Part shown: positions 4,286-12,051 of the stretch, piece after piece
How positions within the stretch are numbered: the stretch's first letter is position 1
How the letters are laid out: each line of letters opens with the position of its first letter
IMG/VR virus record: IMGVR_UViG_3300030104_002331
Coordinates: 1 to 30,249 of that record
DNA: 30,249 nt
Origin: a virus
Reading direction: 5' to 3' (one strand)
Position numbers and translations under genes: made by a program
The notes under the pieces: model-generated
What the model was told of the DNA's origin: nothing
The model's input: only the letters and a program-made list of their open reading frames with translations
The model's database searches: none

Positions 4286-4495
4286 TTAAGGTGCTGGAAC
4301 GAGGATGTGTTGTGCGTGTTCTGACCTTCTCTTATCAGGCCAGGTAACTTCGTAGTAATAACAAACTCGACCTCTTCTATTGAACTTTTCTTTAACTTCT
4401 GTGATCGTTCCAGTTGTAGTTCCTAAAGATAAGCAAATGCTTTTAACATTTTTTTTAATTACTTGATCTTCAAGTTTAAATTTTGGGGTTGGCAT
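4286..4495 (-). CDS. Small SH3/KOW-like barrel protein
   Basis: 69 residues: MPTPKFKLEDQVIKK opens like small phage SH3/KOW-type barrels (K-F-x-x-G/E-D-x-V), followed by a TTTGTITEVKEKFNRRGR turn and YYYEVTWPDKRRSEH strands, and a HILVPAP end. Such proteins are common small nucleic-acid or host-protein binders in phages, but the assignment rests on pattern only. It overlaps the upstream gene by 20 bases. Confidence 0.5.
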   Translation of the reverse strand: MPTPKFKLEDQVIKKNVKSICLSLGTTTGTITEVKEKFNRRGRVCYYYEVTWPDKRRSEHAQHILVPAP

Positions 4496-4664
4496 TGTTT
4501 TTTAAATAAATTTCAACAAGTTTTTTTTTGCTGTAGTGCGTTGTAGTTCCAGCTAATGCTCGTAATTTTTTAGATGACAAGGTTAAAAGAAATCTTTTAA
4601 ATCCTTCTCCTTCTTTTGGACTTTTATAAACAAAAAAAGAGCCAAGCCAGTCTAAAAAATTCAT
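4476..4664 (-). CDS. Small SAP/LEM-like helical protein
   Basis: 62 residues. The C-terminal half (SSKKLRALAGTTTHYSKKKL followed by VEIYLKNN) has the helix-turn-helix spacing of SAP/HeH-like DNA-binding units, in which L-R-x-L-A-G-x4-(Y/M)-S-K-x-x-L is typical. The ATG at 4664 is 18 bases from the end of the folded RNA element at 4682-4859 and overlaps (ATGA) the stop of a doubtful ORF. It is therefore either the first gene of a leader-controlled unit or coupled to that ORF. Confidence 0.5.
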   Translation of the reverse strand: MNFLDWLGSFFVYKSPKEGEGFKRFLLTLSSKKLRALAGTTTHYSKKKLVEIYLKNNANPKI

Positions 4665-4912
4665 AAGACAATTGCCATTATTGAGCTATAGTACTTGTAC
4701 TGATGAGTTGCACCGTTTCGCTTAGTCGAAAAGTCGCCTCTCAATACACGGGCTTGCAGCGTGGCAACTGCAAAGAAGCTGTGGTCAGATGGATAAACCA
4801 TGCCAAAGCCGCAAGAAGGTGGCCCGTAAGTCCTACGGGGTAACTTCAGTAATAGCTCATTTAATGACGGCGGTAAAAAAGAAAGAACCCCTCTTTTGAG
4901 GGGCTTTTTCAT
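4661..4912 (-). CDS. Doubtful ORF antisense to the structured RNA
   Basis: The leftward frame from ATG 4912 gives 83 residues (starting MKKPLKRGVLSFLPP, with TYGPPSCGFGMVYPSDHSFF and ATLQARVLRGDFSTKRNGAT). For it: protein-like sequence, open length and an ATGA junction with the next gene; an internal ATG (GMVYPSDH) would give 46 residues. Against it: the first part is translated straight through a strong intrinsic terminator, and the same DNA folds into a branched RNA. It is GC-richer than its neighbours. Only one of ORF or RNA may be real. Confidence 0.3.
   Translation of the reverse strand: MKKPLKRGVLSFLPPSLNELLLKLPRRTYGPPSCGFGMVYPSDHSFFAVATLQARVLRGDFSTKRNGATHQYKYYSSIMAIVL
4682..4909 (+). 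ncRNA. Candidate branched structured RNA
   Basis: A closing stem is formed by TGAGCTAT (4682-4689) with ATAGCTCA (4852-4859), and TACTG (4698-4702) with CAGTA (4847-4851), giving 13 bp interrupted by an 8-base bulge. Inside are hairpins TTTCG/CGAAA (4716-4731), TTGCAG/CTGCAA (4754-4773), ATGG/CCAT (4789-4801) and CCCGTA/TACGGG (4823-4839). An intrinsic terminator follows 27 bases later on the plus strand, which favours rightward transcription. Read leftward, the element would instead sit as a leader 18 bases before the gene at 4664. No known riboswitch, tmRNA, 6S or RNase P signature was recognised. Confidence 0.5.
4886..4909. terminator. Strong bidirectional intrinsic terminator
   Basis: CCCCTC (4888-4893), loop TTTT, GAGGGG (4898-4903). 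Rightward the stem is followed by CTTTTTC; leftward by TTCTTTCTTTTTT. It ends the leftward recombination operon just after the stop at 4915 and could equally end a rightward RNA from 4682. Confidence 0.85.
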
Positions 4913-4914
4913 GT

Positions 4915-5220
4915 CTAGGCTCTTGGTGCAATCGTGCCTCTGCCATCTTCCCATTCTTCTTCAGAATCAGGATTAACTGACCACTGGCTGCCAAACATTG
5001 TAAACCCTGGAACTTCTTCATAATCAGTTCTGGAGCTATATATTCTAATTGTGGAACCGCCTGGCATTTCACAAGCATCAGCTTGATCTACTAACCATTT
5101 GGCTGCTTTTCTTGCTTCCTCTGGCTTAAAATCTGTAATCAAATAACGATCACAATCGTTGCCGCTTTTTCTTTTCTTATTTGGAATAAGACGAAATTTT
5201 GCTGTAAATGCTGAGTCCAT
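4915..5220 (-). CDS. Hypothetical protein, last gene of recombination operon
   Basis: 101 residues with an N-terminal basic/beta region (FRLIPNKKRKSGNDCDRYLI), a helix (KPEEARKAAKWLVDQADACE), beta-type STIRIYSSRTDY and an acidic end (PDSEEEWEDGRG). No family is recognised; the acidic tail and position next to ERF and a RecE-like nuclease are compatible with a replication/recombination accessory protein. The leader motif AAACAACCCC lies 13 bases before the ATG. It is 4 bp from the upstream gene and is followed by the terminator at 4886. Confidence 0.6.
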   Translation of the reverse strand: MDSAFTAKFRLIPNKKRKSGNDCDRYLITDFKPEEARKAAKWLVDQADACEMPGGSTIRIYSSRTDYEEVPGFTMFGSQWSVNPDSEEEWEDGRGTIAPRA

Positions 5221-5224
5221 GAAA

Positions 5225-5446
5225 TTAATTAATGGGGTTGTTTAAAGTGTTTCGCCATTCATCAATATCGCTTTGGTGATAGCAAATAAGTCGATGATGG
5301 CTAGTGTTTTTACGAACGACCCGCCATTTCGGGCCTTTCGGGCCATTTTTGCGGCTTTTAGATCGCCACAGCCTAAGAGTTTGGGGTTTTATTCCAAGCT
5401 CAAAGGCAAGCTCGTCTGTTGTGTAAAGGTTTGGGTCTTCATTCAT
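5225..5446 (-). CDS. MerR/excisionase-type HTH DNA-binding protein
   Basis: The chosen start gives MNEDPNLYTTDELAFELGIK, and an ATG at 5455 would add three residues. The segment LYTTDELAFELGIKPQTLRL followed by WRSKSR and WRVVRKNTSHHRLICYHQSD is a winged-helix MerR/AlpA/Xis-like fold: a helix-turn-helix, a wing with the ICYHQSDIDEW ending that is typical of HTH_17 proteins. It may act as an excisionase, operon regulator or nucleoprotein architect. It overlaps the end of the ERF gene, so it belongs to the recombination operon. Confidence 0.7.
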   Translation of the reverse strand: MNEDPNLYTTDELAFELGIKPQTLRLWRSKSRKNGPKGPKWRVVRKNTSHHRLICYHQSDIDEWRNTLNNPIN

Positions 5447-6029
5447 CTTTTTCAAGGATTAAAGAAAGTAAATAATCTCGGTCTTTTTCTGTGATTTCTT
5501 TTTCTTTATAGCGTTTTGAGATATTAGTTTTAAGAACTTTTAATCTATCTGGATCAGATGTTTTTTTTATATATGCCTCACATTCTCTAACAAAATTTTT
5601 AATCGGTTTACTCTGGGGTTTGTTTCTCTTTTGCTCTTTCTCTAACTCTTTAGGGTCTTCTGTGTTTGTATCTTGATCCGGTTCAATTCCTAACAGCATT
5701 TTAATGGCATACCTACGGCCATAGGTCAAACTTCCACCCCATGTAAACATTGGTTTATTACCCATATTCTCAGGGAGAAAGGGGACAAGTTCACTTGTGA
5801 TTTCTTGACCTGTTTCAACATGAATCAAACGGGTTAAAATAATTGAAACACCGTCACAAGTTGTAGTAGGTGGTTGAATTAATATCAATCCGTTTTGATG
5901 CAATACAGGTTGAACCACTGAAATCATTTCTTCCAATGGGGTGTATTGATAGTTAAACCCTTCTTTGCTCCTCGTTAAACTGGGGCATTGTTGCTGAAAT
6001 TTTTGCAACGCTTGGTAAAGCTCTTTCAT
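5439..6029 (-). CDS. erf: ERF-family single-strand annealing protein
   Basis: ERF-superfamily recombinase, which anneals complementary single strands during phage recombination and genome circularisation. Diagnostic segments are YQYTPLEEMISVVQPVLHQN, GLILIQPP, ILTRLIHVETGQEITSE and, most clearly, WGGSLTYGRRYAIKMLLGIE followed by DQDTN; the G-S-x-x-T-Y-x-R-R-Y-x-x-x-x-L-L-G-I-x-x-D-x-D signature is the ERF hallmark. The C-terminal third is Lys/Glu-rich and probably mediates interactions. I choose the ATG at 6029, which overlaps the nuclease stop (ATGA) and lies 6 bases after an ACAACCCC leader motif; an ATG at 6053 is the alternative. Functions with the adjacent PD-(D/E)XK nuclease. Confidence 0.88.
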   Translation of the reverse strand: MKELYQALQKFQQQCPSLTRSKEGFNYQYTPLEEMISVVQPVLHQNGLILIQPPTTTCDGVSIILTRLIHVETGQEITSELVPFLPENMGNKPMFTWGGSLTYGRRYAIKMLLGIEPDQDTNTEDPKELEKEQKRNKPQSKPIKNFVRECEAYIKKTSDPDRLKVLKTNISKRYKEKEITEKDRDYLLSLILEKDE

Positions 6030-6826
6030 TGTTTTGGGGTTGTAAATGCCCATCGGGGCAAGGTTAATGATTGTGCGCCAGATTCACACCAACTAGGATA
6101 TGAATCCAAAAGGCGGCACTCTGCAATTTTGTCTAAGGCATCCCTAGACAACTTTTGACCTTCTTTTAAACTCAATTCGTCAAGCTCCCATAAGCCAACA
6201 TCAAATGGATACTCTGATTGCACAACAAGAAAAATAAATCTCTTTGCTTCAGAAACACCGTTTAAATAATGTGCTGCTTGCAGATGATATTTGAAATTAG
6301 CAACAGCCTTTGCAAAGTCGTTTGGATTTGCTCCTGATCTACTTGTTTTAAGATCAACAATCGTTTCTTTATTAATCCAATCTGGTCTACATTTACAAGT
6401 TAAACCGCTTTGCTCGTCATCCCACCAATAAGACTTTTCAGCAATACCAAAACTCAATAACTCTTTTGCTGCTGGCTCTGCAAAAACAGCATCACGCATA
6501 TTTAACGCTAAATCCCAATCTGTTTGGGTGCAAGGTTCTAACCCTTTTTCTTTTGCTTCCTTTGCTTCTTCTTTTCCTTTCTTAGTAGTCCTAGAAGAAA
6601 CAACAACAAAACGTTTTTCTAATTCGTCTGGTTCTAATACAGCACAATGGGTAAGGGTTCCTAATGCCATTGCAGCCGTTGGTTTTCTTTCAGGTCTGTT
6701 TGGATTTAGAAAACTATTCCAGTAAGCTCTAGGGCCATGAGCTGCCATTACTTTCTGCATTGATGCTGAGATTGCAGAATCTTTGTGGTAATGAGCGTTA
6801 GAGATTTGAACGGTTCCTTTTGTCAT
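6026..6826 (-). CDS. RecE-like PD-(D/E)XK exonuclease
   Basis: 266 residues of the exodeoxyribonuclease VIII / PDDEXK-like family often paired with annealing proteins. Visible motifs are GTLTHCAVLEPDELEKRF (helical entry motif), CKCRPDWI...ETIVDLKTSRSG, where the Asp of RPDW and the D-L-K of VDLKTS form the catalytic PD-(D/E)XK centre, and YHLQAAHYLNGV (motif IV Q-x3-Y). It would resect duplex ends 5'-3' so that ERF can anneal the 3' tails. It overlaps genes on both sides by 4 bases, so the operon is translationally coupled. Confidence 0.85.
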   Translation of the reverse strand: MTKGTVQISNAHYHKDSAISASMQKVMAAHGPRAYWNSFLNPNRPERKPTAAMALGTLTHCAVLEPDELEKRFVVVSSRTTKKGKEEAKEAKEKGLEPCTQTDWDLALNMRDAVFAEPAAKELLSFGIAEKSYWWDDEQSGLTCKCRPDWINKETIVDLKTSRSGANPNDFAKAVANFKYHLQAAHYLNGVSEAKRFIFLVVQSEYPFDVGLWELDELSLKEGQKLSRDALDKIAECRLLDSYPSWCESGAQSLTLPRWAFTTPKQ

Positions 6827-7518: not shown

Positions 7519-7544
7519 TAGCGTCTCCGCTTAACTACTCTTTT

Positions 7545-7574
7545 ATTATACACATACTATCAACAACTGTCAAC
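7545..7574 (-). promoter_or_regulatory. Promoter P2 with tandem operator
   Basis: Leftward -35 TTGACA (7568-7573), 17-bp spacer, -10 TATAAT (7545-7550); operator GTTGACAGTTGTTGA at 7560-7574. Perfect sigma-70-type hexamers. Confidence 0.85.
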
Positions 7575-7799: not shown

Positions 7800-7825
7800 T
7801 TCTTATTGGGGTTGTTTACTCTTTT

Positions 7826-7856
7826 ATTATACACATATTCGTCAACACCTGTCAAC
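7826..7856 (-). promoter_or_regulatory. Promoter P3 with tandem operator
   Basis: Leftward -35 TTGACA (7850-7855), 18-bp spacer, -10 TATAAT (7826-7831); operator GTTGACAGGTGTTGA at 7842-7856. From ATGTGTATAATAAAAGAGTA onward it is identical to P2 over 20 bases. Confidence 0.85.

Positions 7857-11845: not shown

Positions 11846-12051
<206 letters not shown>

Follow-up and report, generated by a model that had tools for sequence, protein, structure and literature searches.

A marine cyanobacterial virus carries an RNA unit that is very probably shared with the leaders of satellite-like operons in the Prochlorococcus family. We propose, tentatively and with somewhat less than even confidence, that helper phages maintain an exchangeable array of RNAs, taken from satellite replication-operon leaders, as a modular, kind-specific anti-satellite weapon, in an arms race in which the same RNA would serve in trans from the phage and in cis in the satellite. 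The original prediction for this DNA had described one new phage structured RNA held by a closing stem of 13 bp; the main point beyond that view is that, by sequence comparison, a satellite-like operon has this RNA as its leader.

The window (the whole stretch of DNA analysed, 30,249 bases) is a virus record of a tailed phage whose terminase is 51-53% identical to those of the Synechococcus phages S-H1 and KBS-S-2A and the Prochlorococcus phages MED4-184 and MED4-117, and which also encodes an ERF recombinase, a PDDEXK-like protein and a primase-VapE protein. The features of the unit, its neighbours and selected modules in related phages are collected in Table 1. Elsewhere in the window, a perfect 21-nt direct repeat (TACTCTTTTATTATACACATA; 7536-7556 and 7817-7837, 281 bases apart) flanks a small leftward frame, and an AT-rich inverted repeat with 25-nt arms and no gap (11926-11975) lies directly behind the primase-VapE gene.

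Table 1. Coordinates of the RNA unit, neighbouring genes and modules (window positions unless a contig is named).
Feature	Position	Strand	Details
Neighbour gene, 62 aa	4476..4664	-	start adjoins the promoter, on the opposite strand; kept in L011-L015, which are without the RNA
97-aa frame across the block, judged non-gene	4661..4954	-	frame lost in L001
Promoter-like pair AAGACA-16-TATAGT	4665..4692	+	-10 at 4687-4692; expected start ~4699
RNA module M3	4700..4804	+	CUGAUGAG...GUCAGAUG...CAUGCC
M3 stems	within 4700..4804	+	outer CUGA/UCAG; hairpins UUUCG-CUUAGU-CGAAA and UUGCAG-CGUGGCAA-CUGCAA
RNA module M2	4808..4874	+	
M2 P1	4809-4812 / 4870-4873	+	CCGC / GCGG
M2 P2	4815-4818 / 4844-4847	+	GAAG / CUUC; inner CCCGUA 4823-4828 / UACGGG 4834-4839
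M2 joiner	4848-4855	+	AGUAAUAG
M2 P3	4857-4860 / 4864-4867	+	UCAU / AUGA
Terminator hairpin, bidirectional	4886..4905	.	kept in related phages
Neighbour gene, 101 aa, phrog_37725	4915..5220	-	
ERF-family recombinase gene	5439..6053	-	anchor for fetching related phages
Module D	L025 11386-11275	-	folds well, z -3.4
Module B	L021 9408-9345	-	
B-like module outside the usual site	L014 4366-4420	+	terminator-like sequence after it
M1 module outside the usual site	L031 7372-7303	-	terminator-like sequence after it

The stretch from 4665 to 4905, which runs rightward between two leftward genes (4476-4664 and 4915-5220), is well supported as a putative free non-coding RNA of two modules, M3 and M2. 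Its promoter-like pair scores 9 of 12, and such sites were no commoner in the whole scan than in shuffles; the match is weak alone and takes its support from the promoter-like pairs that sit at the equivalent place in related phages (TTGATT-16-TATAAT or TTGGCT-17-TATAAT). As had been predicted, the block of about 175 nt between promoter and terminator is richer in GC than its surroundings (0.50 vs 0.33 and 0.40 in the flanks) and is followed by a bidirectional terminator. Two close relatives (L001 and L002) have an RNA 100% identical to that of the window except for a variable tip, with flanks at 92-97%. Searches with the Rfam covariance models (release 15) placed no RNA of the window, phage or satellite loci at gathering score, the single match at that score being a cobalamin riboswitch elsewhere in L004; a search of the window at E ≤ 10 gave no convincing family, and ARAGORN found no tRNA or tmRNA, in keeping with the earlier remark that no recognised RNA class fits. 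The M3-M2 block is also absent from the isolated phages of the INPHARED collection.

Of the two roles first offered for the block, that of a free rightward RNA is borne out by the promoter and terminator anatomy, the conservation beyond the flanks, the covariation within modules and the lack of an Rfam match. The other, a leader of the leftward small-gene cluster, is not supported by the position of the 62-aa gene, whose start lies beside the promoter on the opposite strand. We also rejected a protein-coding leftward frame over the block: the L001 block is longer by 74 nt and every leftward frame in it contains stops, so the frame is not kept. Folding of the + strand with the closing-stem arms was mildly more stable than shuffles (z -1.9), and no longer so with the part upstream of the expected start removed (4698-4866, z -0.95); the - strand folded better than the + strand (z -4.0), which does not count as evidence that it is transcribed.

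Contigs of related phages were fetched by the ERF protein and by the terminator. At the same site, these phages have the conserved promoter and terminator around one module, strings of two or three modules, or nothing, and the module kinds found there number at least eight (M1-M4, A, B, C and D). The arrangements include strings (M3+M2 in the window and L002; M3+M4+M2 in L001; M2+M1 in L010), single modules (M1 in L023, M3 in L022, M4 in L020) and further kinds (A in L017, L036 and L037; B in L021; C in L035, L040 and L041; D in L025). The site is empty in L011, L013 and L015, and L026 has the promoter-side sequence fused to the terminator. Modules are nested as well as lined up: in L001 (2061-2145), M4 replaces the short tip of M3. 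Read together, these arrangements support modularity of the unit and swapping of modules between phages. At the RNA site of L012 (reverse strand, from 2412) lies another, longer sequence, which may make this a general spot for insertions.

Within modules, stems are kept by changes on both sides, and hairpins of M1 and M2 covary between phage and satellite copies. M3 is identical in L001 and L002; standing alone in L022 it has 4 changes in 95 nt, two of which turn a U-A into a C-G pair in the first hairpin stem, the sole stem that varies. Over 47 nt, the window M2 is identical in L010; across the three M2 sequences compared, two base pairs of P3 differ on both sides. The P3 of M1 was compared in four sequences, which are two pairs of close relatives: 28 of 28 cells are paired, three pairs are changed on both sides and the loop is nearly constant, a score reached by 4 of 500 shuffles. 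In 7 of these 28 pair cells the + strand has G-U or U-G, which would mismatch on the other strand, and this points to the + strand as the RNA sense. A stem of B is likewise changed on both sides (GCCA/UGGC to GCUA/UAGC), and the helices of M4 hardly vary and so give little information. M1, M2 and M4 each allow a drawing in which a closing stem encloses hairpins, the last of them placed right before the closing strand; despite these like drawings, the M1 and M4 models do not find each other, so the likeness does not establish common descent of the kinds.

This architecture replaces the one first predicted. The two helices that were to close the block, TGAGCTAT (4682-4689) with ATAGCTCA (4852-4859) and TACTG (4698-4702) with CAGTA (4847-4851), can indeed be drawn; as a frame that makes the block a single RNA they do not hold. 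In the 13-bp stem, the left arm overlaps the -10 hexamer TATAGT (4687-4692) and would therefore lie upstream of any start from that promoter; the right arm cuts into the covarying P3 hairpin. The stem is moreover impossible in L022, which has M3 alone, and in L010, which has M2 and M1 and no M3. We therefore rejected a single RNA closed by this stem, on promoter overlap and lack of conservation, and keep from the original prediction the new phage structured RNA, now read as two separable modules.

A 29-mer of M2 matched one contig among 84,980 genomes, that of Prochlorococcus AG-409-A10 (G001), whose leader is identical to the window M2 at 45 of 45 nt. Phage and satellite copies of M1 are identical at 68 of 70 nt, and those of M4 at about 90%. 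In five Prochlorococcus-family genomes one of these modules forms the 5' leader of a replication operon (M2 in G001; M4 in G216, G020 and G034, before operons homologous to that of G001; M1 in G191), which supports, at the level of sequence, identity between the phage modules and these leaders. In all five elements the RNA precedes a small gene and an excisionase-like gene on the same strand, and a primase-like gene comes next wherever the stretch reaches (G001, G216, G020 and G191); the name 'primase-like' comes from gene order and sequence, as Pfam and PHROGs gave no match. In G001 the co-oriented operon after the RNA encodes a 60-aa protein, an excisionase-like protein (phrog_539, weak), a primase-like protein and an AAA_25 helicase.

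Judging by gene content, the elements are presumably satellites. Matches to VapE or to AAA_25 helicase occur in them, an integrase-like gene lies upstream in G253, in G020 and in a further G216 element (named by reading of the sequence, the one tested having no Pfam match), and a tRNA adjoins another. Similarity between phage and satellite stops at the RNA (window-G001, 56/61; L031-G191, 76/83; L020-G034, 68/76; L020-G216, 72/80; L001-G020, 54/68), and two satellites, G034 and G216, align well beyond it, throughout. The first protein of the operon was not found in the phages.

That first protein is small and basic (60-77 aa), and its type tracks that of the RNA: the three M4 elements encode proteins of 68-71% identity, the M1 element another (35%) and the M2 element a third (25%). 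The first protein of G253 has its nearest counterpart in the M2 element (51% over 49 aa), and the G253 leader contains 14 bases of the window M2 (CAGTAATAGCTCAT). Simple linkage could account for this co-variation of protein and RNA. Past the RNA, leaders of the M2 and M4 types have in common the motif GGCTAAATAT(N)CACCCC, which the phage copies do not have; among 400 family genomes it turned up in 4, each time at one of these leaders. Pfam had no match for the first protein, and PHROGs and PADLOC had no significant one; its fold was modelled as helical at low confidence (mean pLDDT 70), with no confident structural match. No satellite copy of module B, C, D or M3 was found, A being too short to search; weak, short matches to M1, M3 and D in L007, L008, L047, L048 and L049 look like chance in host sequence and were set aside. 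Satellite primases were not detected in IMG/VR by the patterns used, nor was a copy of an element.

We infer from these comparisons both the direction of capture and its use. The phage would have captured leader RNAs of satellites, at least M1, M2 and M4 being captured copies, and would make them in trans from its own promoter, with no satellite gene behind them; each module would then interfere with satellites that have a leader of its own kind, and strings of modules would widen the range of satellites countered. The deployment of several modules against several kinds of satellite would be in line with the strings and with the turnover seen at this site. That interference with satellites is the purpose of the unit we regard as slightly less likely than not. 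Two routes may be considered. A module may titrate a factor whose binding the leader requires, such as the small basic protein whose gene follows immediately, or it may act as the satellite's own immunity RNA. Complementary matches of a leader RNA to its own leader reached at most 7-8 nt and those to foreign ones up to 10, and duplex energies of leader and operon were no better than those of shuffles and showed no clear excess over foreign operons, in a comparison that could miss short or structured targets. As the leader RNAs thus show no clear excess of complementarity to their own operon, no target for an antisense immunity mechanism is apparent. To our knowledge, cyanobacteria are generally held to lack Rho; together with the missing antisense target, this would favour titration, for which the small basic protein is the first candidate.

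The nearest precedent for the second route is the CI RNA of P4, a trans-acting immunity factor that comes from the untranslated leader of the satellite replication operon and pairs with flanking targets (PMC4825925). Like P4 CI and P1 C4, the RNAs described here are structured and stand in the leader of a replication operon, in five leaders (M1, M2 and M4) of elements taken as satellites by their gene content; P4 CI differs in that it pairs with seqA and seqC around it, whereas here no such complementarity stood out and there is no Rfam match. We know of no CI copies carried by a helper phage as an array. Tycheposons and other marine satellites are Prochlorococcus elements with a tyrosine recombinase and replication genes (PMC10872708, PMC10803314); the open papers on them mention no leader RNA common with phages, and the elements treated here, called satellite-like from their gene content, are candidate tycheposons at most. 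Comparative genomics of bacteria and metagenomes has yielded structured RNAs from marine sequence, some of them in phages (PMC2864571), from which the present modules differ in that no Rfam family matches them.

Among other readings, the most credible, though unlikely, is that phage and satellite RNAs alike block or distract a host defence or regulator, one factor per kind, so that the satellite would be a fellow user and not the target. A hypervariable accessory cassette is what would be expected of anti-defence genes, and several module kinds have no satellite counterpart. There is also precedent for small phage RNAs against defence in the RNA-based anti-CRISPRs (Racrs), solitary phage-encoded copies of an RNA from the system that is blocked (PMC10651486). 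The RNA copied in Racrs is, however, a CRISPR repeat, whereas here it is the leader of a satellite-like operon and the modules are strung together; and in the satellites the RNA is no gene of its own and forms the fixed leader of a replication operon, and its kind follows that of the next gene, which fits control of the satellite better.

Somewhat less likely again, the satellite operon may consist of an RNA antitoxin followed by a small toxin in the style of type III systems, and the phage would carry the RNA to survive the toxin. The order of promoter, RNA and small gene matches, RNA type goes with gene type, and a phage is known to acquire ToxI-like repeats: with pseudo-ToxI, phage TE has its own copies of the RNA at the head of a small operon found elsewhere, and so neutralises that system (PMC5086642). 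As in ToxIN-like systems, the RNA lies directly upstream of a small gene on the same strand in the five elements, an order read from sequence. ToxI, however, is a tandem-repeat pseudoknot with a terminator before the toxin gene, whereas the five leaders, when read, each held a single structured unit and no hairpin with a T-run between the RNA and the start codon, so that no terminator is evident, and the RNA is not repeated in tandem within a satellite. The small gene also heads a replication operon, and at 60-77 aa, with the searches of Pfam, PHROGs and PADLOC described above, it resembles no toxin of the ToxN, TenpN or CptN kind.

It is improbable that the transfer ran in the opposite direction, with ancient phage regulators acquired by satellites as leaders that sense or respond to helper infection. 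The present results are compatible with either direction of transfer, and a phage protein that bound both copies would give the satellite its trigger; but close phages have different RNA kinds or none, which is not what one would expect of a phage regulator, and satellites of the same kind share leader and gene together. Least probable of all is a DNA site (origin, packaging or attachment site) copied by satellites from the helper for replication, packaging or integration: satellites do copy helper packaging sites, as P4 does from P2, and the first satellite match lay at the edge of an element, but close phages lack the site or carry unrelated content, a promoter and a terminator bracket it, and stems kept by changes on both sides, G-U pairs included, speak for RNA behaviour. 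An integrase attachment site, suggested by that first match, was dropped once other satellites and phages had shown the same position to be an operon leader.

The preferred reading, capture of satellite leaders for use against satellites, suggests that the virus turns stolen RNA switches on its own parasites. If it is true, helper phages of the ocean's most abundant photosynthetic organisms hold an RNA-based, modular anti-satellite weapon, and the leader RNA is a likely life-cycle switch of satellite-like elements. It makes the simple prediction that module kind should match satellite kind, which is testable from sequence and in culture. The modules also add several structured RNA families which Rfam does not contain.

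Two further observations concern the satellite-bearing genomes. In G216 (contigs C1, C10 and C22) there are four matches to the satellite primase-like protein, with differing leaders, and the C1 leader (L052, reverse strand, about 890-1000) also has inverted repeats. Near the satellite-like operon of AG-409-A10, a 55-nt terminator-like repeat, 98% identical between its copies (L009, 12183-12237 and 15740-15794), flanks host genes.
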